Source: Promethearchaeota archaeon
Lineage (GTDB): Archaea > Asgardarchaeota > Lokiarchaeia > Sigynarchaeales > SOKP01
Assembly: GCA_013375495.1 (NCBI GenBank)
Contig: JABXKC010000004.1
Location: 175,454-239,453, forward strand
Length of the DNA stretch: 64,000 nt
Direction: 5' to 3'
Part shown: piece by piece, positions 4,404 through 63,263 of the stretch
Position numbering within the stretch: position 1 is the stretch's first letter
How the letters are laid out: each line of letters opens with the position of its first letter
The notes under the pieces: model-generated
Databases searched by the model: none
What the model saw: the letters and a program-made list of their open reading frames with translations, nothing else
What the model was told of the DNA's origin: nothing
Translations under genes and position numbers: made by a program

Positions 4404-7400
4404 ATGAAAATAAATTCTAAAACTTCATTTTTAAAAAAAACCTCAGTTCTAAGAATAGCGGCTCTTATTGTTATATCAGGAATATTTCTTTCGAGTAGTC
4501 TTCTCATTCCAAATTCCAATGATAATACAGAAATAAACAGAGATTTTAATGATACCCCTCAAATACCACTAACTGCAGCTGTTGATTCCGTATTATTTGG
4601 AGGTAGTGAAAATGCTTTAAATATAACTGATTATGGAAATTTATATGAAACTGAACAACAAGTTGATTTAACCAATCAAGAAGCTGTTAATCTTACTTAT
4701 TACTTAGATGATGTTCATAAATGGGAAGTCTCAGAAGTTGAAACGCAGATTAACAATATTCAAGATGAGAGAGACTGGATCGATAATGGGGTTATTGGAA
4801 GTGATACAGGACTTACGCCGACTTCTCAGGTTTCCCAGTCTGAAGACTCAGGTCCTAGTTATGTAAAGAATTTAAATCCAAATAATTATTTGGCTACATT
4901 TGACGGTAATGATTGTGATTATATGCGAATTCATTTCGTACTCCTTGAAGTTGAATATTATTATGATGAGTTATATATTTCTAACCAAGATAATACCGTT
5001 TTAGATAACTTTGCCGGATATTACACCGATTTCTACACTCCCTGGTATAGTGCAACAGAACTAAAAATTTCTATGTCTTCCGATGGTACAGTACAATATT
5101 ATGGCTATTCTGTAGACTTTTTTGAAACATATAATGGGAGTATGTTTACTCTTGATAGCACAAGTTGGAATTATTTCGAAGATACTATTGATGATCCATC
5201 TCGATTATATGGTGGAACTGCAGAAATTGGAAATCGATCAGCTCTTAGAACAGTGATTGAGGGGATTGATAATGCTCCTTCCTATTCATATGAAGACGGG
5301 GATATCGCCGGTTTCTATCAAAACTTTACAATTCCAAGGGGGAAACTTATTGATGCTTGGGTGTCAATGGACTATAATATTCTTAGAGGGATTAATACAA
5401 ATGATAATTATGCATATATTAAAGTAAATGGAGAAACTGTTTACACTCGAGGATTTAGAACTATTACAAACGCTGGATTAGGACAATGGCACAGTACAGG
5501 TTTAATAAATTTGGACTTATGGGAAAATAGTTCGAGTATTTTCGATGAAGTACTCATTGGACAGAGTTTCAATTTATCTGTTGGAATCGAGATTGGAAAT
5601 GGAGTTGAATATACAGGATTCGACCATTTAGATATTCAAGAGGCATATTTTGACAATATTCAATTAATCTTCAAAACAAGTGCAAATTCAACACAACCAG
5701 GAATAAATCTACAATTTAATAATAGCATTTTAAATGATGATAATACTTGGGGTGTTTCTTATTTAAATTTAACAGGTAATTGGAATATTAATCCATTAAA
5801 ATTAACTGTTACTACAGATTCACCTTCCGTATCATTTGATCTTGATATAACCCTTTATGGGTATCACAAAACCAAATCACGAGTAGGACAAACTACCCTA
5901 GAAGGAGTTTCATATGAGATATTAGAAAATGGAACAATAATCTGGGAGTTTTCTCATAATTTCTATATGCCGGCGCAATATTCGGATTTTGAATTTACAA
6001 TCAATAAACCTGAGAACTGGGACTTTCTTTCCGTATTAGATCCAACCTTACAATCACGCTCGTTTGAATTTGGAAATCATGGTGATCTGATTTTGCATAT
6101 AAATAAAGAAGATGCTTTATATCCTGGTTGGTGGACTTTTCAAGCATCTTCTCCTAATTATCTGGATATCTCAAATACAAAATTATTAAAACAAGGAGAA
6201 TGGGTTCAAACTTCCTTCATAACTGGTGAGTCAACAAGAATCAAAACTCAAGTCAACTATTCTGATGAAGTCCCCATAGGTGTTGATTCCACTTTAGTTA
6301 ATTTAACTATTTACGATCCAGAAGGAGTTCAATGGTTCACAGAAGCAAATTTTCCTCTTACAAATGGTACAGTTACTTTTTCTGAGATTACTTTTGACGC
6401 TTTAAATACAACGGGAGGTACCTATGGTTATACTCTATTTTGGAGTAATGGAACTTCACTAGGAGGTATCAAATCAAACTTTATTATAGAACATCAAAGT
6501 ACATTAACACTGTTAAAACCAGACGACGCAAAGAACGAGCATATCCCTCTCACCGAAGGATTTGTAGGAGATATTATTCCGGTAAGAGTTTTATTATCAG
6601 ATTCTGAAAATAATTTAACCATTTCAAATTCGGTTGTATCATACAATTGGACTCTTGGAAGAACATTCAATTTTACTGAAGCAGCTTTAGGTGTGTATGA
6701 AACGATATTGGATACCGCTGATTTAGCTTCTAAAGGACTTTATAGTATAGTTATTAGATCTTCAAAAATAGGATTTCTCGAAACTAATTTCACTCTCTGG
6801 ATTAACCTAGGAGAAGAAACTAAGTTACAGCGACTAGAATCTGATTATAATATAGAATTACACGCAAATAGCACCATTAAGTTTAAATTTACTGACTTTA
6901 GTGGGGATGGCATTGATGGAGCAACGGTTAATATTAGTATAAGTGATCCATCGCATTATTCGATTGAAAATATTGGTAATGGTGTGTATGATATTGAATT
7001 TAGTACGTTATATATCGATGATATTGGTATCTATCAGATTAATTTTAGTTTTTCGGCACCTGAATATGAACCTCAGTATTATGTTTACCAGTTTCAAATT
7101 ATAAAGCAATCAGTGAATCTTACAGTTCTTCTAAATTCAGAAAATATTCAAGAAAATTCTCTGCATCCAATCACCTTTTTTGATAAAATTAATATTTCTG
7201 CTCAAGCAATGTCAATCATAGATAAAAATAATATTTCAGGGGGTACTTTTTCTTGGACTAGTGAATATTATCAGAAAAATTTTACAGAAGTTCCAAATGA
7301 TTGGTATAACTCGTCTGTTGAATGCTTACCTGAAAATTTTTCTTCTGGAATCAATTTTATTTATTTGAAGTTTGAACATCCAAATTATAGAACGCAAACA

Positions 7401-34998: not shown

Positions 34999-35099
34999 GG
35001 GAAGGTAGTCTAGCCTGGAATGATACTGAGCTTTTTAGGTCTCAGCGTTAATCTCGGTTCGGAACTGAGAGGTCGGGGGTTCAAGTCCCCCCTTTCCCA
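34999..35099 (+). tRNA. tRNA-Pro (anticodon CGG), interrupted by an apparent 27-base intron
   Basis: The acceptor stem GGGAAGG (34999-35005) pairs with CTTTCCC (35092-35098), with A as discriminator. D arm 35008-35024. The T arm is GGGGG-TTCAAGT-CCCCC (35075-35091). The only 5-bp anticodon arm with a 7-base loop just before a 5-base variable region is CTCGG-TTCGGAA-CTGAG (35053-35069), giving anticodon CGG at 35060-35062. This leaves 27 extra bases between A26 (35025) and C27 (35053). CCA is not encoded. Amino-acid identity and fold are well supported; exact splice points are not. Confidence 0.85.
35026..35052 (+). other. Putative tRNA intron at the D-arm/anticodon-arm junction (position 26/27)
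   Basis: These 27 bases contain their own hairpin, CTGAG-CTTTTTAGGT-CTCAG (35026-35045), followed by CGTTAAT. The usual archaeal tRNA intron site is 37/38, one base 3' of the anticodon; here the anticodon loop itself is uninterrupted. Because CT begins both the intron and the following exon, the boundary can slide by two bases. Removal would need a relaxed bulge-helix-bulge recognised by the splicing endonuclease. Confidence 0.65.
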
Positions 35100-50810: not shown

Positions 50811-51053
50811 TCATAACATGTCAGATAAGTCGAGACTTTGATCATCTGCGATTTCCTTCCACTGTTCAATCGCTTCTAATGCGTCCTTTTCTTCCATTTG
50901 CTCAATAGCATAACCAGCGTGAACAATAACATATTTTCCAACTTCAGGATTTAACACTAAAGCGATGATAACTTCTTGTTGTATTCCATCAAAATCAACT
51001 AGTGCGGAATTTCCATCGATTTTGACTATTTTACCAGGGATCGCGAGACACAT
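50811..51053 (-). CDS. hypC: Hydrogenase maturation factor HypC
   Basis: 80 residues. MCLAIPGKIVKIDGNSALVD has the essential Cys2, and YVIVHAGYAIEQMEEKDALE matches HypC's second motif. HypC carries the Fe(CN)2CO precursor with HypD and delivers it to the [NiFe] large subunit. It fits the hydrogenase operon 4 kb away. It lies alone, divergent from the gene at 51225. Confidence 0.93.
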   Translation of the reverse strand: MCLAIPGKIVKIDGNSALVDFDGIQQEVIIALVLNPEVGKYVIVHAGYAIEQMEEKDALEAIEQWKEIADDQSLDLSDML

Positions 51054-54308: not shown

Positions 54309-55181
54309 TTATAAACCAAGTTTTTCTAACGTGGATTTTAATCGAGTTCTGTGAAATTTCAAACCGATATCGTCTGGAGTGAAGCCCATCGCCAAAGCGT
54401 AAAGCTCTGTGATATACATCACGGGAGTATCGTATTCAGTCTCGTATGTCTTACCTAAATTTCGCTGTCTCGTATCGAATTGCTGATAACACGCTGGACA
54501 ATTTACAGCGATTACATCTGCGCCAGATTTTTTGATTGCGTCCATTTTAATCTTTAAGTTAGCAAATCCATGTTCTTCGTACGCGTTAGTTACCGCGCTC
54601 CCGCAACATAAAATTTCCTCACCGTAATCTACTACAGATGCTCCACTTGCTTCTACGAGTTTCTTTAGCGTGGTTGGTCTCATAGGATCGTCAGATTCCA
54701 TCCATTCAGCAGGTCTCATATAATGACACCCTGGATGCACAGCGACTTTTAGACCAGCTAGGGGTTTTGTAATTGCTCCCTTGACTTTGTCTAGATTATC
54801 GCTTAGCACATCAACAAAATGCTTTATATCAATGGAGCCTTTGTATTCTTTACCGATCTTTGCGAGTTCTTTATTGACCTTATCCATTTTCCATGAATCG
54901 TGCTTTAATTGGTGTTGAACGCCTCTAAGCGTGTTGGTGCAACCGTTGCACAAAGAAATTATGTCTTTTCCTTCAGCTTCAGCTAAACATAAATTCCTTG
55001 CGCCAATTGCTAACCACGCGTCGTTATCAAACGATTTCATGCCCGTAGGGTCAGGACAACAAGAAAAATTCGTTTGTGAGGTCTCAATTCCAACTTTTTC
55101 AAAAACCTTTCTAGCAGACGCCTCTAGGAATGGAATACGGTTTCCGATAGTGCAACCTTCAAACATCTTATATTCTGTCAT
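54309..55181 (-). CDS. hdrB: Heterodisulfide reductase subunit B-like protein (hydrogenase operon copy)
   Basis: 290 residues. Two CCG domains: GCTIG...FSCCPDPTG...CNGCTNT and HPGCHYM...ILCCGSAV...NCPACYQQF, which hold the non-cubane [4Fe-4S] clusters in HdrB. It starts 15 bases after hdrC with an AGGAGG run. In methanogens HdrB reduces CoM-S-S-CoB; in Asgards the disulfide or acceptor is unknown. Homologous to the copy at 61888. Confidence 0.92.
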   Translation of the reverse strand: MTEYKMFEGCTIGNRIPFLEASARKVFEKVGIETSQTNFSCCPDPTGMKSFDNDAWLAIGARNLCLAEAEGKDIISLCNGCTNTLRGVQHQLKHDSWKMDKVNKELAKIGKEYKGSIDIKHFVDVLSDNLDKVKGAITKPLAGLKVAVHPGCHYMRPAEWMESDDPMRPTTLKKLVEASGASVVDYGEEILCCGSAVTNAYEEHGFANLKIKMDAIKKSGADVIAVNCPACYQQFDTRQRNLGKTYETEYDTPVMYITELYALAMGFTPDDIGLKFHRTRLKSTLEKLGL

Positions 55182-55196
55182 TTTTTTTCATTCCTC

Positions 55197-55724
55197 CTAT
55201 TTTAACTTTTTGTCTACTCCAAGATTTTTTAATAAGGTTTGGAATTCAACAACATCTGGTTTTGCGACGGGAGGTAAGCCTAATATCTTCCGTCTGCGCG
55301 CTATAGGATCTTTCCCTGTTTTAGGTCCAGTAATCGCCTTTGCACTTTCAAAAATTGTTCTTGCTTGCGAATAGATAAAATCTGGTCCATTTCCGTCTGC
55401 AATACTTTTGTTTTTTAAAAATGTAAAGATCTCAGTGAGTTCAATGTTCTGTGGACACACTTCGTCACAGGTATCGCACACTGTACAACCCCAAATTGCT
55501 AAGGGGTCTGCGCTAAATATCGCATCTTTGTATCCTAGCAAGGCATTGAGTATATTACTCCTTGGATTGTATCCTGTAGTCGTATAAAAATCTGTCGTTA
55601 CATTAGTAATTGGACAATTATCTGAACAGCGACTACATTGATAGCAATATTTGATTAAATCAGACCCGATATGATAATCCATAACTTGTTTTCGAAATTC
55701 AAAATCTACTGCCATTCTTTTCAC
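55197..55724 (-). CDS. hdrC: Heterodisulfide reductase subunit C-like protein (hydrogenase operon copy)
   Basis: 175 residues. Two [4Fe-4S] motifs: CYQCSRCSDNCP and CTVCDTCDEVCP. It passes electrons from HdrA to HdrB. Start is GTG at 55724 or ATG at 55715. It follows the selenopeptide gene by about 100 bases and precedes hdrB by 15. No hdrA is in the operon. Confidence 0.92.
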   Translation of the reverse strand: MKRMAVDFEFRKQVMDYHIGSDLIKYCYQCSRCSDNCPITNVTTDFYTTTGYNPRSNILNALLGYKDAIFSADPLAIWGCTVCDTCDEVCPQNIELTEIFTFLKNKSIADGNGPDFIYSQARTIFESAKAITGPKTGKDPIARRRKILGLPPVAKPDVVEFQTLLKNLGVDKKLK

Positions 55725-55764: not shown

Positions 55765-55835
55765 ATTGGCTTTTACCCCGGGCAGGGGGCAGTTATATCC
55801 AATCTATTGTTTTTATTGGACATTCATCCTAAGCC
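55765..55835 (-). promoter_or_regulatory. Candidate SECIS element downstream of the VhuU UGA
   Basis: On the minus strand, directly after the selenopeptide stop: a 9-bp stem AUGUCCAAU / AUUGGAUAU (55823-55815 and about 55803-55795) with an A-rich loop of 11, then a GC-rich hairpin CCCC/GGGG (about 55788-55776). AUGA precedes the first stem, as in eukaryotic SECIS, but the partner GA on the 3' side is not evident. Archaeal SECIS elements lie in 3' untranslated regions. Which hairpin, if either, acts as SECIS is open. Confidence 0.4.
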
Positions 55836-55976
55836 AACATTCAATTTGCGAGAGTAAACCTCTTCACCGTTTTCTTTGACTACGGTTATGTGAGCTGCGC
55901 ACGATAGTCAACAATCGAAACAACGCACAATCATTTCTAAAAGGTTTACTACACCTTCCGGTACTTCTTCGCTCAT
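55824..55976 (-). CDS. vhuU: VhuU-type hydrogenase selenopeptide (UGA = Sec at residue 23)
   Basis: ATG at 55974-55976, 28 bases after the large-subunit stop. A conventional reading stops after 22 codons at TGA 55908-55910, but translation through it gives CFDCULSCAAHITVV, the C-terminal L2 motif (D-x-C/U-x-x-C-x-x-H) that the large-subunit gene lacks, and continues to residue 50 before TGA at 55824-55826. In Methanococcus VhuU is likewise a separate selenopeptide completing the nickel site. Here the residue before Sec is Cys instead of Pro. About 20 residues follow the His. Confidence 0.85.
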
Positions 55977-56003: not shown

Positions 56004-57308
56004 TTAATCAATCCAAGGGTCTGGTAATTTTAATCCTTCTAATGCCTTATCTTCAAACACTTGTTTGGCTACGTGCATTAGTGTTTTTTCAATTCCAGCA
56101 ATGTTGTGATTCGTCGCTACTAAAAGATTCGCTTTCTTACATATTCCTTCAGCGTCGGACCATATGTGATATAACAAGGTTCCTCGTGGGGCCTCAGTCA
56201 TACCTACACCATTTCCTTCTCTTGGTTGCACATCTAAAGTTTTGCAATCTGGATTCACGATATCAGGATCTTGAAGTAAGGTTGCAATCATTTCAACAGA
56301 CTCAACCAATTCTATTAATCGAGCCCAGTGATATGCGAATGTGTGATGGGAGATTGGTCCAACTTTAGCTCTCATGGCTTGTAATGCTTCATCAGCCAAT
56401 GGAGTTGCCATCTTATCAGCACAATTAATCATCGCTAATGTATTAGCCCGATAGATACCCTCAGGGTATCCCGCAGGTTTGTAATACATATGTGTTGCGT
56501 ATGAGTGCTCTGGAATATGTTCACCAAGTGCGTCCAAGTAATTGTGAACGTCGTAATCAATTTTTTTACCCTCAGGTGTAACTATCCTAAGATCACCTTC
56601 GTAAATATCGTGTACTCCTTTATTTGTCATACCCAAATAATAAGTAGGAACGACACCTACGTTAGCTACGACATCCCAATAATCTTCAACAACCTTTAAT
56701 CCGATTTCAACTGTTTTCTTTGTAAATTCGACTTGTTCGTTGATTTGTGCTAAGAATTTATCCCGAGAGGCTTCTGTCATAGGCTTTTTCATGCCTCCAA
56801 CAATCGCAGAGATAGGATGGACTGATTTTCCTCCAATATCTGCGCAAAGTTTCTGACCGAAATCCATCATCTTTAGTGCCATTGCTCCAACATCAGGCAT
56901 TTTACTTATCACGTGAACGACATTCCTTAACGCAGGATCCGCAAAAGGGCCCAGTAAGAAATCTGGTGCTGCTAAAGCGTAAAAGTGTAGTGCGTGACTG
57001 GAATATTGTTTTGCATTTTGAAGTAAAATTCGTAATTTTCGAGCTGGTTCTGGGATGGATACACCCCAAGCATCCTCAACAGCTTTAGTCGGAGTTAAAT
57101 GATGTGGGATCGGACAAATTCCGCAAATTCTAGGTGTGATTCTAGGTATGTGTTCGCAATATCGTCCTTCGAGAAATTTTTCGAAAAACCGCGTAGATGC
57201 TATATTAAACTGAGCGTCTTTTACCTTGCCATCGTCTCCGATGACGATTCTTAATCCACCATGTCCCTCTAATCGAGTGACTGGTTCTACAGTTATTTCC
57301 TTTGTCAT
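56004..57308 (-). CDS. vhuA: F420-non-reducing [NiFe] hydrogenase large subunit without its C-terminal motif
   Basis: 434 residues. EPVTRLEGHG and the L1 motif RICGICPIPHH with Cys62 and Cys65 are present. The protein ends at LKLPDPWID, without the L2 motif DPCxxCxxH that supplies the other two nickel ligands; these are encoded by the next gene. It is therefore a VhuA-type split subunit. With the small subunit it oxidises or makes H2 in the cytosol, linked to heterodisulfide reductase. Ten bases separate it from the small-subunit gene. Confidence 0.92.
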   Translation of the reverse strand: MTKEITVEPVTRLEGHGGLRIVIGDDGKVKDAQFNIASTRFFEKFLEGRYCEHIPRITPRICGICPIPHHLTPTKAVEDAWGVSIPEPARKLRILLQNAKQYSSHALHFYALAAPDFLLGPFADPALRNVVHVISKMPDVGAMALKMMDFGQKLCADIGGKSVHPISAIVGGMKKPMTEASRDKFLAQINEQVEFTKKTVEIGLKVVEDYWDVVANVGVVPTYYLGMTNKGVHDIYEGDLRIVTPEGKKIDYDVHNYLDALGEHIPEHSYATHMYYKPAGYPEGIYRANTLAMINCADKMATPLADEALQAMRAKVGPISHHTFAYHWARLIELVESVEMIATLLQDPDIVNPDCKTLDVQPREGNGVGMTEAPRGTLLYHIWSDAEGICKKANLLVATNHNIAGIEKTLMHVAKQVFEDKALEGLKLPDPWID

Positions 57309-57318
57309 TTTTTTCCAC

Positions 57319-58632
57319 CTACCTATAATTTTTGTTTGCGGCTAACGTAAACTTTTCACTAAAGCCGAGCTTGTCCTTTATCTGGGCAAGTAATTCGTCT
57401 TTTGATAAAGCTACGTTAAAGCCTTTCGTTACTACATCAGCAAAGCGTTCAGCTTGGTTAACTCCCCAAGCTGTTTGACCAAAGCAGCCAGAACATGGTG
57501 CATTAACTCTCATACACATACCACCACACCCTGCTCTTGTTATCGGACCTGCACATAGGTATCCTTGTTCAATTAAACAATCGTTAGAGTTTGGGAGTCC
57601 TTCGTAATCCCGTTTCACTTTTGTCATTTGAGATTTGCTTCCGATTTCAAGGTCGCATTGATCACATACGGTTGAAATCTTAATGAACTCTCTATTGTTC
57701 TTCAGAAATCTCATAATGTTAGCATAGATATCTCCTGTGTCAGCGGGTACGTTATCTAAAGCTGTTTTAGGTTCTCCCATTCGACGGACTTGTTTTAAAA
57801 TATCTCCTGCGAGATCAAATCCAGACATTAAGGGGACATTTAAAAACAGTGTTAAGAACTCGTGTAAGTTCTTTTTATCTCCGGTACTTAGTTGGTCAAT
57901 ATTCTGTGTCAGATTTTTGAGTTTTTCTGCTCTTACAGAAACTGTTTTTGCTGGACCGAGACATCCAACGCATGGGTCTCCTTTATCAGTACACTTTAGA
58001 GTACAGCCCATGCTAGTAATCGGACCAAAACATAATTCATATTTATCTAGTAAACAGTTTTCATTGTTTAAAGAGCAATTGTTACAGAAAGATAAATCTG
58101 CCATCGGTTGTGGCTTTTGACCAAGTAAGAATTGAACTGAACTTATAATGGCTTCTGGTTTCGGAGGGCATCCTGCCATATATACGTCAACATTAATAAC
58201 TTCGTCCAATGGAACGATTTTACTAGTGAATCCGGGCATATGTTCTTTAGGTTCGTGTGGTGCTTCGTTAGTAATCGACTCTGCTTGTTCGAACTTACGT
58301 TTTATGTTTTCTTGTATATCCCATTCATTAGCTAATCCGTGAACGTTACCGTAGCAAGAACAACTGCCAAAAGCAATTATGAGTTGGCATTTAGCCCTCA
58401 TAAGCTTAGCGTTTTCAACATCCGCGTTTGTTCTTAAACTACCTTCCACGAAGCCTACAAGAATATCGCCGTCAGGTCGTGCAACTAGTGAATCGTGCTT
58501 GAAATCTACAACTGCTGGCCAATATACAAAATCAAGTGCTGGGAGAATCGGCAACAATCCTAAGTGCGCGTTCAACAAGGATTGATGGCACCCCCAACAA
58601 TCGCTATTCTGCATAAAAGCTACTTTTACCAT
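57319..58632 (-). CDS. vhuG: F420-non-reducing hydrogenase small subunit with duplicated C-terminal Fe-S domain
   Basis: 437 residues, against about 300 for MvhG/VhuG. The proximal-cluster part has CWGCHQS (Cys12, 15), GSCSCYG and AGCPPKPE. The medial/distal cluster region then occurs twice: Cys183, 186, 193, 201, 210, 214, 221, 224 and Cys323, 326, 352, 360, 369, 373, 380, 383, each with GPIT...GC...C...PCxGC. A helical linker of about 90 residues joins them. The extra copy adds two predicted [4Fe-4S] clusters to the electron wire. First gene of the operon. Confidence 0.92.
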   Translation of the reverse strand: MVKVAFMQNSDCWGCHQSLLNAHLGLLPILPALDFVYWPAVVDFKHDSLVARPDGDILVGFVEGSLRTNADVENAKLMRAKCQLIIAFGSCSCYGNVHGLANEWDIQENIKRKFEQAESITNEAPHEPKEHMPGFTSKIVPLDEVINVDVYMAGCPPKPEAIISSVQFLLGQKPQPMADLSFCNNCSLNNENCLLDKYELCFGPITSMGCTLKCTDKGDPCVGCLGPAKTVSVRAEKLKNLTQNIDQLSTGDKKNLHEFLTLFLNVPLMSGFDLAGDILKQVRRMGEPKTALDNVPADTGDIYANIMRFLKNNREFIKISTVCDQCDLEIGSKSQMTKVKRDYEGLPNSNDCLIEQGYLCAGPITRAGCGGMCMRVNAPCSGCFGQTAWGVNQAERFADVVTKGFNVALSKDELLAQIKDKLGFSEKFTLAANKNYR

Positions 58633-59807: not shown

Positions 59808-61886
59808 TTATAGTTTTTCAACTTTAGCTGAACAAACCTTAAACTCCGGAATTTTAGCAGTAGGATCTAATACAGGATTTGTAAGAACATTAGCTGCTGC
59901 TTCTTTAAAATGGAAGGGCATAAAGATCAAACCTTTTCTTACTCTATGAGTAACCTTAGCTTTTGTAATTACTTCTCCACGTCGAGAGCTTACTTTAACC
60001 TTCTCCCCATCAACGATTCCCATTTCATTAGCATCTTCGATAGAAATTTCAATATAGCCTTCTGGTACTCTAGCATGGAGGGTTGGAGATCGTCTACTCA
60101 TTGTACCAGTATGGAAGTGCCATAAAACTCTACCCGTCGATAACACTAATGGATATTCAGGATCGTCTACTTTGGGATCACCTTCTTTTGGTGGTATATA
60201 TGAACATACATTTAAATGTCCTTTACCTCGAACGAAAGCTCCATCCTTATGTAAAAATATAGTACCTGGAGAAGAAATATCTCTACAAGGCCATTGAAGA
60301 CCATCTCGTTTGCTATTAAGTCGTTCCCAAGTAATTCCTGCGTAAATAGGAGTTGTTTTATTAATCTCATCGTCTATTTCTTTTGGATGAGAATAATTTA
60401 AACCATCATAACCCATTGCTTGTGCCATAAGACTGATAATTTCCCAATCGGAGATACTGTTGCCAACAGGATCAACTGCTTTTCTTATTAATTGTATTCT
60501 TCTTTCAGTACTCGTAAATGTACCATCAGTTTCAGCAAAAGAAGCTGCTGGTAATACTACATCAGCTAATTCTGCAGTTGGTGTCATAAAAATATCTGAA
60601 ACTACGAGAAAGACTTTCTTTAAACCCTCTCGCACATGATTAATATCAGGATCGCTGACCATCGGATTTTCACCCATAACCCATAATCCCTTCAGTTTTC
60701 CATCATATGCATCATTCATAATCTCAACCACGGTACGTCCAACTTCTGTATCCATATCGTCTACATTAATATTCCAAATATCAGCCATTTTCTTCCTGGC
60801 TTCGGGATCTATAACCTTTTGGTATCCAGAAAAGACATTTGAAAGAGCCCCTAAGTCACATGCCCCTTGAACATTTTGCTGACCTCTTAAAGGATTTACT
60901 CCAGTCCCCCATTTTCCCATATTTCCACAGAGCATTTGGAGATTAGCAGTACTTTTAACATTATCAGTTCCTGTAGTATGTTGAGTTATACCCATTGAAT
61001 AGATTAGGGAACAAGCTTTAGCATTCGCAATCGTTTTAGCTGCCTTGATTATATCATCTTCTTTTACTCCACATATATCTGCAGCCATTGCAGGAGACAT
61101 CTTCATAACTTCTTCTTTAAATGCTTCAAAGTTCTCACAATATTTTTCGATAAAATCTTTATCGTGAAGATCATTGCTGATTATATAATTCATCATCCCG
61201 TTAAGTAGTGCAACATCTGTACCAGGCCATTGATTCATCACAATTCCTTCATGATCATTTGCGATTTCTGAAAGAGGAATTGTCCTTGGATCTGCTACAA
61301 TTAATGTACCTCCTTTATGAACAGATTCTAAGATTCTTTTTCCAATTAAGGGATGTTGTTCGTTAGTATTTGATCCAGTAACATATATTACATCCGCATC
61401 AGAGATCTCATCAAGTGAGTTAGTCATTGCACCAGAACCAAATGAGGCTGCTAATCCCGCAACGGTGGAAGCATGACACAATCTAGCACAGTGATCAACG
61501 CTGTTTGTTTTAAAAACTGCTCTTGCAAATTTTTGCATAGCATAATTCTCTTCGTTCGTACATTTAGCAGAGCTTAAACACGCGAGTACTCTCTTATCAT
61601 CAGGATTTTCTTTCATGATTTTTTTAAAGTTATCCGCACAATATTGTATTGCTTCATCCCAACTTACTTTTTCAAATTTACCATTCTTCTTAATTAATGG
61701 ATCAGTAAGTCTTTCAGGAGAATGAATAAATTCATGTAGGGACCACCCTTTAATGCATAGTTTTCCTTTACCCGGATTAAATCCATCTCTAACTGGTTTA
61801 GTATCAACTACTTTTCCATTTTGTACTTTAAGATAGACTTGACATCCTGTACCACAATAAACACATGTTGTTAATACCTTTTCCAT
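59808..61886 (-). CDS. fdhA: Formate dehydrogenase catalytic subunit, Cys form
   Basis: 692 residues from ATG 61886 behind GGGAGG; an upstream GTG at 61895 would overlap hdrB. Counting from that GTG: N-terminal [4Fe-4S] Cys11, 14, 18, 47; the catalytic position is Cys140 in VDHCARLCHAS, where many archaeal FdhA have Sec. The molybdopterin-binding domains are complete (TGSNTNEQHPLIGKR, RGQQNVQGACD, GENPMVSDP). It oxidises formate or reduces CO2 at Mo/W-bis-pterin. No FdhB follows, so electrons presumably pass to HdrA/HdrBC. Confidence 0.92.
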   Translation of the reverse strand: MEKVLTTCVYCGTGCQVYLKVQNGKVVDTKPVRDGFNPGKGKLCIKGWSLHEFIHSPERLTDPLIKKNGKFEKVSWDEAIQYCADNFKKIMKENPDDKRVLACLSSAKCTNEENYAMQKFARAVFKTNSVDHCARLCHASTVAGLAASFGSGAMTNSLDEISDADVIYVTGSNTNEQHPLIGKRILESVHKGGTLIVADPRTIPLSEIANDHEGIVMNQWPGTDVALLNGMMNYIISNDLHDKDFIEKYCENFEAFKEEVMKMSPAMAADICGVKEDDIIKAAKTIANAKACSLIYSMGITQHTTGTDNVKSTANLQMLCGNMGKWGTGVNPLRGQQNVQGACDLGALSNVFSGYQKVIDPEARKKMADIWNINVDDMDTEVGRTVVEIMNDAYDGKLKGLWVMGENPMVSDPDINHVREGLKKVFLVVSDIFMTPTAELADVVLPAASFAETDGTFTSTERRIQLIRKAVDPVGNSISDWEIISLMAQAMGYDGLNYSHPKEIDDEINKTTPIYAGITWERLNSKRDGLQWPCRDISSPGTIFLHKDGAFVRGKGHLNVCSYIPPKEGDPKVDDPEYPLVLSTGRVLWHFHTGTMSRRSPTLHARVPEGYIEISIEDANEMGIVDGEKVKVSSRRGEVITKAKVTHRVRKGLIFMPFHFKEAAANVLTNPVLDPTAKIPEFKVCSAKVEKL

Positions 61887-61887
61887 T

Positions 61888-62778
61888 TTAAGCACCCTCC
61901 CATACTGTTATTTCGGGTTTTACCCTATGCGTTTTATATCCTACTTCATCGAGTGATTTGCCCATTGCTAATCCTAATAATTCGATAGCATATAAAACAG
62001 GAATCTTAGCATCTTTAAGTTCTACATATTCTCTTGATGCTTGGATCTGTCCCATATCAAATTGATTAAAGCAGAATGGACATCCAGTACTGATTATTTG
62101 AGCTCCTGTATTTTTTTTAATATCAAGTAATTTAGTCGCAATACATTTATTATTACCTTCTTTATCTCCAACTAAGTTTATTGATACTCCACAACAATCA
62201 ATCTTCGTGACATAATCTACAGGAATCGCTCCTAGAGCCGCAACGAATTTATCATATTCTTCTGGATCTGTAGGATCGTCATATTTTATTATCTCATCCG
62301 GCATCAATAAGTGACATCCAGGATGAGAAGCAACTCTTAATCCATTCAATGGTTTTTTTATCTTTGTTTTAAGATTGCCGTATCCAATATCATCTTTAAA
62401 AACTTGCATTAGATGTTTCACTTCGACAGTACCATTATACTTCTTTCCAATAGCACTTAAAACATTATTAATAGCGGCTTTGATTTCAACATTTTTCTTG
62501 ATTTTATCATTTGCTATTGATAATGTGTTTAAACAACCATTACACAATGTTAAAATATTCATCCCTTTTTCTTCCGCAAGAGCTAAATTCCTTGCTGCAC
62601 ATGTCAGCCAAAAAAATTGATTAGCTCCTTGCAATTGAACTGGATCTGGACAACAAGAAAAATCTTCTTCTTCTTGAATTTCAATCCCAATCTCTGGAAG
62701 AATTTCCAACGCAAGCTTTTCAATATTAGGCAATCTTGCAGGAATTGTGCATCCTTTAAAAAATAAATATTTTCCCAT
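61888..62778 (-). CDS. hdrB: Heterodisulfide reductase subunit B-like protein (formate operon copy)
   Basis: 296 residues with both CCG domains: GCTIP...FSCCPDPVQ...CNGCLNT and HPGCHLL...KIDCCGVS...GCPFCFNQF. Starts 2 bases after hdrC and ends just before the fdhA ATG. Clearly homologous to the copy at 54309 but diverged. The Cys-Cys pair in the second domain is kept (DCCGVS). Confidence 0.92.
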   Translation of the reverse strand: MGKYLFFKGCTIPARLPNIEKLALEILPEIGIEIQEEEDFSCCPDPVQLQGANQFFWLTCAARNLALAEEKGMNILTLCNGCLNTLSIANDKIKKNVEIKAAINNVLSAIGKKYNGTVEVKHLMQVFKDDIGYGNLKTKIKKPLNGLRVASHPGCHLLMPDEIIKYDDPTDPEEYDKFVAALGAIPVDYVTKIDCCGVSINLVGDKEGNNKCIATKLLDIKKNTGAQIISTGCPFCFNQFDMGQIQASREYVELKDAKIPVLYAIELLGLAMGKSLDEVGYKTHRVKPEITVWEGA

Positions 62779-62780
62779 CT

Positions 62781-63263
62781 TTAGTTCTCCTCCATTTTTA
62801 ATCCTGTTTTTTCTGCTATTATTTTTAACTCCTTACTTACATTTTCATTGGATGATAATTCCTTTAATCCAATTTTTTTCCTATCTGCATTTATTTTCGC
62901 ACTGATATCATAAGCAAGACCGGTATTTAATACTTGTTTGGTTATTGCATACACTCCAGCAGGAGCTAGGCCTTTTTGGTATGATAACCTTTTCAAATTA
63001 TTAAAAACTTCAGCGGGTTCAGCGTCTTGAGGACATACTAAGATGCATTTTTCACAAGCAGAACACATCCAGACATTTTTCAGAGCTGTAGGTTCATCGC
63101 TACCAAAGAGTTGAGAAATGAAAGCATTTTCTATATCATATTTTGATACATTCAAAGTAACGGGACAAAAAATTGAACAAGCAGAACATTTAAAACATCT
63201 TTCGACTTCTTCGCTTTGTTTTATTATGTTATCTTTATTGTACTTAATTTTTATTATTTCCAT
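62781..63263 (-). CDS. hdrC: Heterodisulfide reductase subunit C-like protein (formate operon copy)
   Basis: 160 residues. CFKCSACSIFCP and CSACEKCILVCP bind two [4Fe-4S] clusters. First gene of the hdrC-hdrB-fdhA operon. Slightly shorter than the 175-residue copy at 55197. Divergent from the transporter gene. Confidence 0.92.
   Translation of the reverse strand: MEIIKIKYNKDNIIKQSEEVERCFKCSACSIFCPVTLNVSKYDIENAFISQLFGSDEPTALKNVWMCSACEKCILVCPQDAEPAEVFNNLKRLSYQKGLAPAGVYAITKQVLNTGLAYDISAKINADRKKIGLKELSSNENVSKELKIIAEKTGLKMEEN

Follow-up and report, generated by a model that had tools for sequence, protein, structure and literature searches.

How does a hydrogenase whose large subunit stops short of its second nickel-ligand segment acquire a complete active site, and what is to be made of the two sulfur- and selenium-bearing residues that would stand next to each other where this segment appears to be encoded? 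Both questions are raised by a gene cluster in a 64,000-nucleotide stretch of DNA (hereafter the window, meaning the whole stretch that was analyzed) from a Promethearchaeota archaeon. The nickel-ligand segments go by the motif names L1 and L2. On the minus strand the genes run in the order vhuG, vhuA, vhuU, followed by hdrC- and hdrB-type genes, and the features needed first are these:

57319-58632, minus strand: vhuG, hydrogenase small subunit (437 aa)
56004-57308, minus strand: vhuA, hydrogenase large subunit without L2, with the L1 motif RICGIC present (C62/C65)
55824-55976, minus strand: vhuU-type selenopeptide gene, 50 codons, with TGA as selenocysteine (Sec) at codon 23 and a terminal TGA
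55908-55910, minus strand: the in-frame UGA (Sec), codon 23, first residue of the L2 motif U-L-S-C-A-A-H
55197-55724, minus strand: hdrC-type iron-sulfur protein
54309-55181, minus strand: hdrB-type CCG-domain protein
50811-51053, minus strand: hypC-type hydrogenase maturation chaperone

VhuA ends in PDPWID before a TAA stop and carries no L2 motif. Its residues 4-416 align to residues 3-416 of MvhA, and a profile built from the short peptides covers MvhA 424-450; because the alignments continue along the MvhA numbering, VhuA and the short peptide together correspond to one large subunit. The peptide reads MSEEVPEGVVNLLEMIVRCFDC-U-LSCAAHITVVKENGEEVYSRKLNVGLG-stop (50 residues, 55976 to 55824 on the minus strand), of which the part up to the motif His is MSEEVPEGVVNLLEMIVRCFDC-U-LSCAAH, with a 21-residue tail behind it. 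The original prediction, that a separately encoded Sec peptide completes a [NiFe] site, with the UGA at the first L2 position and the frame continuing into LSCAAH, is thus borne out at 55910-55908. In the assembled enzyme VhuU would dock into VhuA, whereupon Sec23 and Cys26 would bind nickel.

The peptide's best family is NCBIfam VhuU (NF041786), where its 50.4 bits fall short of the curated cut-off of 70; that of VhuA is NF041785, with 464 bits against a cut-off of 800. Like the Methanococcus VhuU described by NF041786, the window gene encodes a separate short Sec peptide that completes VhuA with the motif U-x-S-C-A-A-H. It stands alone beside a vhuA without L2 and, judged by its codon and by selection, would carry Sec at the first L2 position, but the residue before the ligand, Pro in the solved 27-residue VhuU-type chain (9sfi_M), is here Cys22. 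The fused large subunits MvhA, FrhA and HydA and the [NiFeSe] enzyme HysA share L1, L2 and the nickel site with Vhu, but hold L2 within one chain. An MvhA/VhuA-related large subunit, the small subunit VhuG and Hdr neighbors place the cluster in group 3c (Vhu/Mvh); neither MvhD nor HdrA was found among the nine window proteins scanned. Comparison of sequences thus makes it highly probable that the window gene encodes the Sec-containing VhuU subunit, in its Asgard form, of a group 3c Vhu/Mvh-type [NiFeSe] hydrogenase with HdrBC proteins.

In the seven closest loci, whose records are labeled Lokiarchaeota or Lokiarchaeia, VhuA shows 93-98% identity (over part of its length in two of these loci), and the DNA of the small-subunit gene is 92-93% identical to two of the genomes involved. 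Several observations concern the surroundings of the gene. VhuG (window 57319-58632) apparently contains two Cys-rich segments of similar pattern, and in four Thorarchaeal loci a single place aligns to both. Adjoining the hydrogenase cluster, at 59808-63263, lie a Cys-type formate-dehydrogenase alpha gene and a second hdrB/hdrC-like pair; this FdhA had no match in the 15 loci searched, which have flanks of only a few kilobases. Farther away, at 34999-35099, Rfam identifies a 101-nt tRNA, possibly intron-bearing, that ARAGORN misses, finding no tRNA in the 64-kb window.

The arrangement extends well beyond these close relatives. The pattern D.U.SC.AH was found downstream of vhuA in the window and in 68 of 80 loci (69 rows in all), while 12 of the 80 loci lack such a Sec peptide, three of them ending inside vhuA or at most 0.2 kb past it. 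Across the phylum, a profile search gave matches in 200 of 227 genomes and, among the matches listed, the strongest were short frames with one in-frame TGA and the weaker ones fused subunits. Some loci depart from the common layout: in six Lokiarchaeal loci (L010, L012, L028, L039, L042, L043) the Sec peptide lies ~1.5 kb downstream of vhuA and not directly behind it; in six Thorarchaeal vhuA loci (L061, L065, L066, L068, L071, L072) a Sec or Cys peptide of the pattern type is absent from the stretch examined and may be supplied from elsewhere; and in a Sigynarchaeal locus (L048, ~6360-6520) the vhuU frame is apparently broken just before the Sec codon by an insertion of ~30 nt, either real or an assembly error. 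For comparisons of the peptide gene itself, loci L001-L080 and L103-L212 and the window were collapsed to 116 distinct sequences.

Stand-alone VhuU selenoproteins in Asgard archaea have been published (Mariotti 2016, as cited by others; Huang 2024, PMC11227280; PMC11291895). In the passages covered, the latter two papers describe Asgard VhuU/FrhA selenoproteins of the same kind as the window gene, with a split form of ~50 aa, an AUGA_AA core, a UGG_CCA lower stem and a stop UGA lying over the AUGA. To the extent that these sources were covered, the split selenopeptide and the overlap of stop and SECIS are already in print; cleavage of the tail is likewise published, for Methanococcus voltae.

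A rival reading denies that the peptide is a selenoprotein, taking the UGA for an ordinary stop and the frame behind it for a relic. Frame shape has little to say on the matter: the window contains 22 frames consisting of ATG, 15-30 codons, TGA and at least 20 further codons, and since all 22 share this shape, it is the motif D.U..C..H, present in just one of them, that excludes a chance frame. Conservation of the frame past the UGA in relatives had been named beforehand as a test, and conserved it is. Among 54 close homologs, codon changes after the UGA comprise 540 synonymous and 215 nonsynonymous ones, where random single changes would give an expected synonymous share of 24%, and the changes at codon positions 1, 2 and 3 number 203, 24 and 655. 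The post-UGA codons are, on this codon-level comparison, under purifying selection at the protein level. TGA stands at the Sec codon in all 114 segments compared, which had been preselected for TGA.

Absence of any Sec machinery had been named beforehand as a second refuting outcome, and we searched for that machinery in ten relatives and 14 control genomes. SepSecS was found in 9 of the 10 relatives versus 4 of the 14 controls, and SelD over its cut-off in 10/10 versus 2/14, the best SelD match in each relative itself carrying an in-frame TGA. The remaining components score less completely, which is the point in favor of a plain stop. SelB-like matches exceed 220 bits in seven relatives and the model cut-off in two, with sub-threshold matches in all 14 controls; PSTK gives a weak match in all ten relatives, none over the cut-off of what is a eukaryotic model; and tRNA-Sec passes the Rfam cut-off in 2/10, with sub-threshold matches in 14/14 controls as well. 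Some Lokiarchaeia have tRNA-Sec with unusual insertions and deletions, according to the part of the report covered (Sun 2021, PMC9723677), and such forms may explain the tRNA-Sec misses. The relatives thus appear to possess much of the Sec machinery, clearly for SepSecS and SelD and in part for tRNA-Sec, SelB and PSTK. Two genomes provide observations on gene arrangement: in a closed Lokiarchaeal genome (G008) a sub-threshold 35-bit tRNA match lies ~0.2 kb from SepSecS, with a higher one (43 bits) elsewhere, and on a Thorarchaeal chromosome (G010:C1, 258168-262431, from the genome with L080) matches to tRNA-Sec, PSTK, SepSecS and SelB fall within ~4.3 kb, that to PSTK being of the PSTK-like kind.

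The region around the end of the gene folds into a candidate signal for Sec insertion:

55765-55838, minus strand: eukaryote-like (type I) SECIS as folded, with core AUGA_AA, 9-bp upper stem AUGUCCAAU/AUUGGAUAU, apical AAAAA and a lower stem
55824-55826, minus strand: second TGA, the terminal stop of vhuU, inside the AUGA of the SECIS core

The predicted folding energy is -25 kcal/mol, where shuffled sequences average -16 (z -3.3). For type I Asgard SECIS elements, the covered part of Huang 2024 (PMC11227280) gives a GA_[G/A]A core, an upper stem of 7-15 bp and an apical loop of 8-20 nt; the vhuU hairpin has AUGA_AA, 9 bp without mismatch and an 11-nt loop beginning with AAAAA, and its UGG...CCA lower stem fits the Asgard frhA signature published in the same paper. 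An Rfam SECIS search of the window gave no match. Euryarchaeal SECIS elements, as described in the passages covered, are of a type that differs from the window's eukaryote-like one.

Among the 116 distinct vhuU rows, AUGA falls on the stop in 93, with the best hairpin exactly there in 74 of these, although both this survey and the stem analysis choose hairpins in a way that favors pairing by construction. Ten rows end in a TGA outside AUGA, and 28 of the 116 have no hairpin under a strict rule, many of them (judged by eye) owing to one extra base. TGA serves as the stop in 103 of the 116 genes; the window's long mechanical frames use it in 2 of 48 cases. The other 13 genes stop at TAA or TAG; nine of them have a hairpin, and in seven of these nine the AUGA lies 21-34 nt further down. 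Stem bases vary while pairing is mostly kept, the weakest positions being 1 and 5 (paired in 40 and 61 of the 74 rows); where the arms are 9 bp long (40 rows), 95% of the pairs form, versus 83% when arms are dealt at random, the arms having been chosen for pairing. A hairpin score of at least 8 was reached at 43 of 93 sites with ATGA at the stop, versus 126 of 9262 ATGA sites, the latter including the vhuU sites themselves. The ribosome would decode the first UGA as Sec and terminate at the second because it is part of the SECIS. Overlap of the stop UGA with AUGA was considered as a new feature and rejected as such, since the covered part of PMC11227280, citing Mariotti 2016, already reports it for Lokiarchaeia. 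Set against the purifying selection behind the UGA, the SECIS-like hairpin, the TGA-bearing SelD in 10/10 relatives and a published Asgard Sec trait, a plain stop followed by a relic is extremely improbable.

The stretch behind the motif His had likewise been thought peculiar, as some 20 residues that would have to be kept or cleaved.

55827-55889, minus strand: 21-residue tail after the motif His, removal on maturation expected

The tail is present, at 21 residues, but it has precedents. According to its title, Sorgenfrei 1993 found the Methanococcus voltae VhuU C terminus to be cleaved at a defined position, the solved chain 9sfi_M stops one residue past the motif His, and a HycI-family protease occurs in 9 of the 10 relatives; for these reasons we regard the tail as ordinary. 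A HycI-family protease would cut off the 21 residues.

Just upstream of the UGA the gene encodes two extra cysteines:

55911-55913, minus strand: codon TGT for Cys22, the residue adjoining Sec on its N-terminal side, where Pro is usual; Cys in 112/116
55920-55922, minus strand: Cys19 codon, a second extra Cys (C-F-D-C-U); Cys in 102/116

Under the NF041786 model, Pro in place of Cys22 would score 4.1 bits more and Ala in place of Cys19 3.4 bits more. The solved chain 9sfi_M reads D-P-X with Ala at -4, whereas the window has Cys at both positions, and fused MvhA/FrhA/HydA large subunits read D-P-C where the window reads D-C-U. HysA has D-P-U.

The original prediction had singled out D-C-U as unusual and called for an alignment of Asgard VhuU at the Pro/Cys position. 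That alignment, made from 116 distinct Asgard genes preselected by a pattern that requires Sec, the second Cys and His and leaves the -1 and -4 residues free, has Cys before Sec in 112, Pro in 2, Phe in 1 and Asn in 1; the residue four before Sec is Cys in 102, Ala in 6, Ser in 4, Asn in 3 and Ile in 1. Counted as distinct peptides, 102 of 106 have Cys before Sec, one of them in an H-C-U motif. The taxon names on the records behind these rows include Lokiarchaeota, Thorarchaeota, Prometheoarchaeum and Harpocratesius. D-C-U is therefore unusual against the D-P-U and D-P-C enzymes but the norm within the Asgard set, and with stand-alone Asgard VhuU published as well, the idea of features peculiar to this gene finds no support. 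A local oddity or sequencing error was rejected on the same count.

Is the cysteine more than a habit of one lineage? One answer is that Cys has replaced Pro at position 22 in a near-neutral or purely structural way, fixed in the lineage and without a redox role. Pro, Phe or Asn in 4 of 116 rows would fit this, but the Cys22 codon alternates (74 TGC and 36 TGT in 114 segments), and Cys22 is therefore held at the protein level. Nor is it restricted to one branch: in a VhuA tree rooted at its midpoint with one long outgroup row, the main split parts Loki from Thor and Cys22 is retained in both groups, the Pro pair and the Phe row falling within one of them. Because Cys occurs in both main groups and the exceptions are confined to one, Cys at position 22 is, as far as this tree goes, probably ancestral.

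A protein database search bears on the same issue. It gave 1974 matches, of which the best 120 have P-C (64), C-W (31), C-C with His (18), C-C with Phe (4), R-W (1) or an incomplete motif (2) at the two positions. The W of the C-W matches is evidently TGA read as Trp by the source. The 64 D-P-C matches look like C-terminal parts of fused subunits, and stand-alone D-P-C peptides may be among them. The 22 D-C-C peptides among these best 120, in which Cys replaces Sec, include some named Thorarchaeota, Sigynarchaeota, Jordarchaeaceae or Freyrarchaeum. Eight fused Asgard paralogs have D-P-C in seven cases and D-L-C in one (L050). Because D-C-C peptides exist, and because seven of the eight fused paralogs and the solved chain have D-P, the Cys goes with the Asgard stand-alone peptide and not with Sec itself; its retention where Cys stands in for Sec again speaks against neutrality. 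Among the Cys versions, some (L213, at ~3870 on the plus strand, L154 and L161; P0167 and P0172-P0174) read D-C-C-L-S-C-S-A-F, with Phe where the motif His, at which cleavage is expected, would stand. VhuA beside the variant in L213 keeps its L1 motif, no vhuA was found within 8 kb around L154 (L214), and these peptides may be uncleaved or non-hydrogenase variants.

If Cys22 had a fixed partner, a cysteine of VhuA might be expected to track it. None was found, in a small test in which only three of the rows compared lack Cys22; C155, C355 and C390 of VhuA have the look of lineage features. This outcome again fits a neutral replacement, to which we give a real chance, somewhat short of even. 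A partner within the peptide is also conceivable, Cys19 and Cys22 forming a CxxC pair that binds metal or makes a disulfide, for example in nickel loading or at the VhuA interface. The high frequencies of Cys at -4 (102/116) and -1 (112/116) agree with such a pair, but 12 of the 116 rows have Cys22 and no Cys19, both Pro22 rows retain Cys19, and some D-P-C database matches also have Cys at -4. With no VhuA Cys tracking Cys22 in that small test, and with Cys19 only loosely tied to Cys22, a fixed disulfide or bound metal becomes less likely, and we regard the CxxC pair as distinctly unlikely.

Animal thioredoxin reductase has a vicinal Cys-Sec bond. By analogy, and more tentatively than the steps set out above, Cys22 could be a second thiol that pairs with Sec23 in the free peptide or the oxidized enzyme, and the bond might protect or tune the nickel ligand. 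That a vicinal Cys-Sec pair on the nickel ligand acts in both the free selenopeptide and the oxidized enzyme, either as an internal redox switch or as a protective bond, is in our judgment unlikely, if worth stating. In the literature searched (titles, abstract openings and passages, with Mariotti 2016 represented by citations of it), we found no remark on a Cys-Sec pair in VhuU and no description of a Cys-Sec hydrogenase active-site design. D-C-U goes uncommented in the covered passages of the two Asgard VhuU/FrhA papers (PMC11227280, PMC11291895), and the widespread Asgard pair seems, within these bounds, to have passed unremarked.

All told, the window gene is best read as coding for an ordinary Vhu selenopeptide, one that belongs to a variant type found throughout the Asgard archaea examined. 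Should the extra cysteine matter, it would represent a natural and widespread change next to a hydrogenase's catalytic selenium. The Pro, Phe and Asn exceptions and the swaps of Sec to Cys that occur in nature would then allow direct tests of what the residue preceding the ligand does, with a bearing on how Asgard archaea handle hydrogen.
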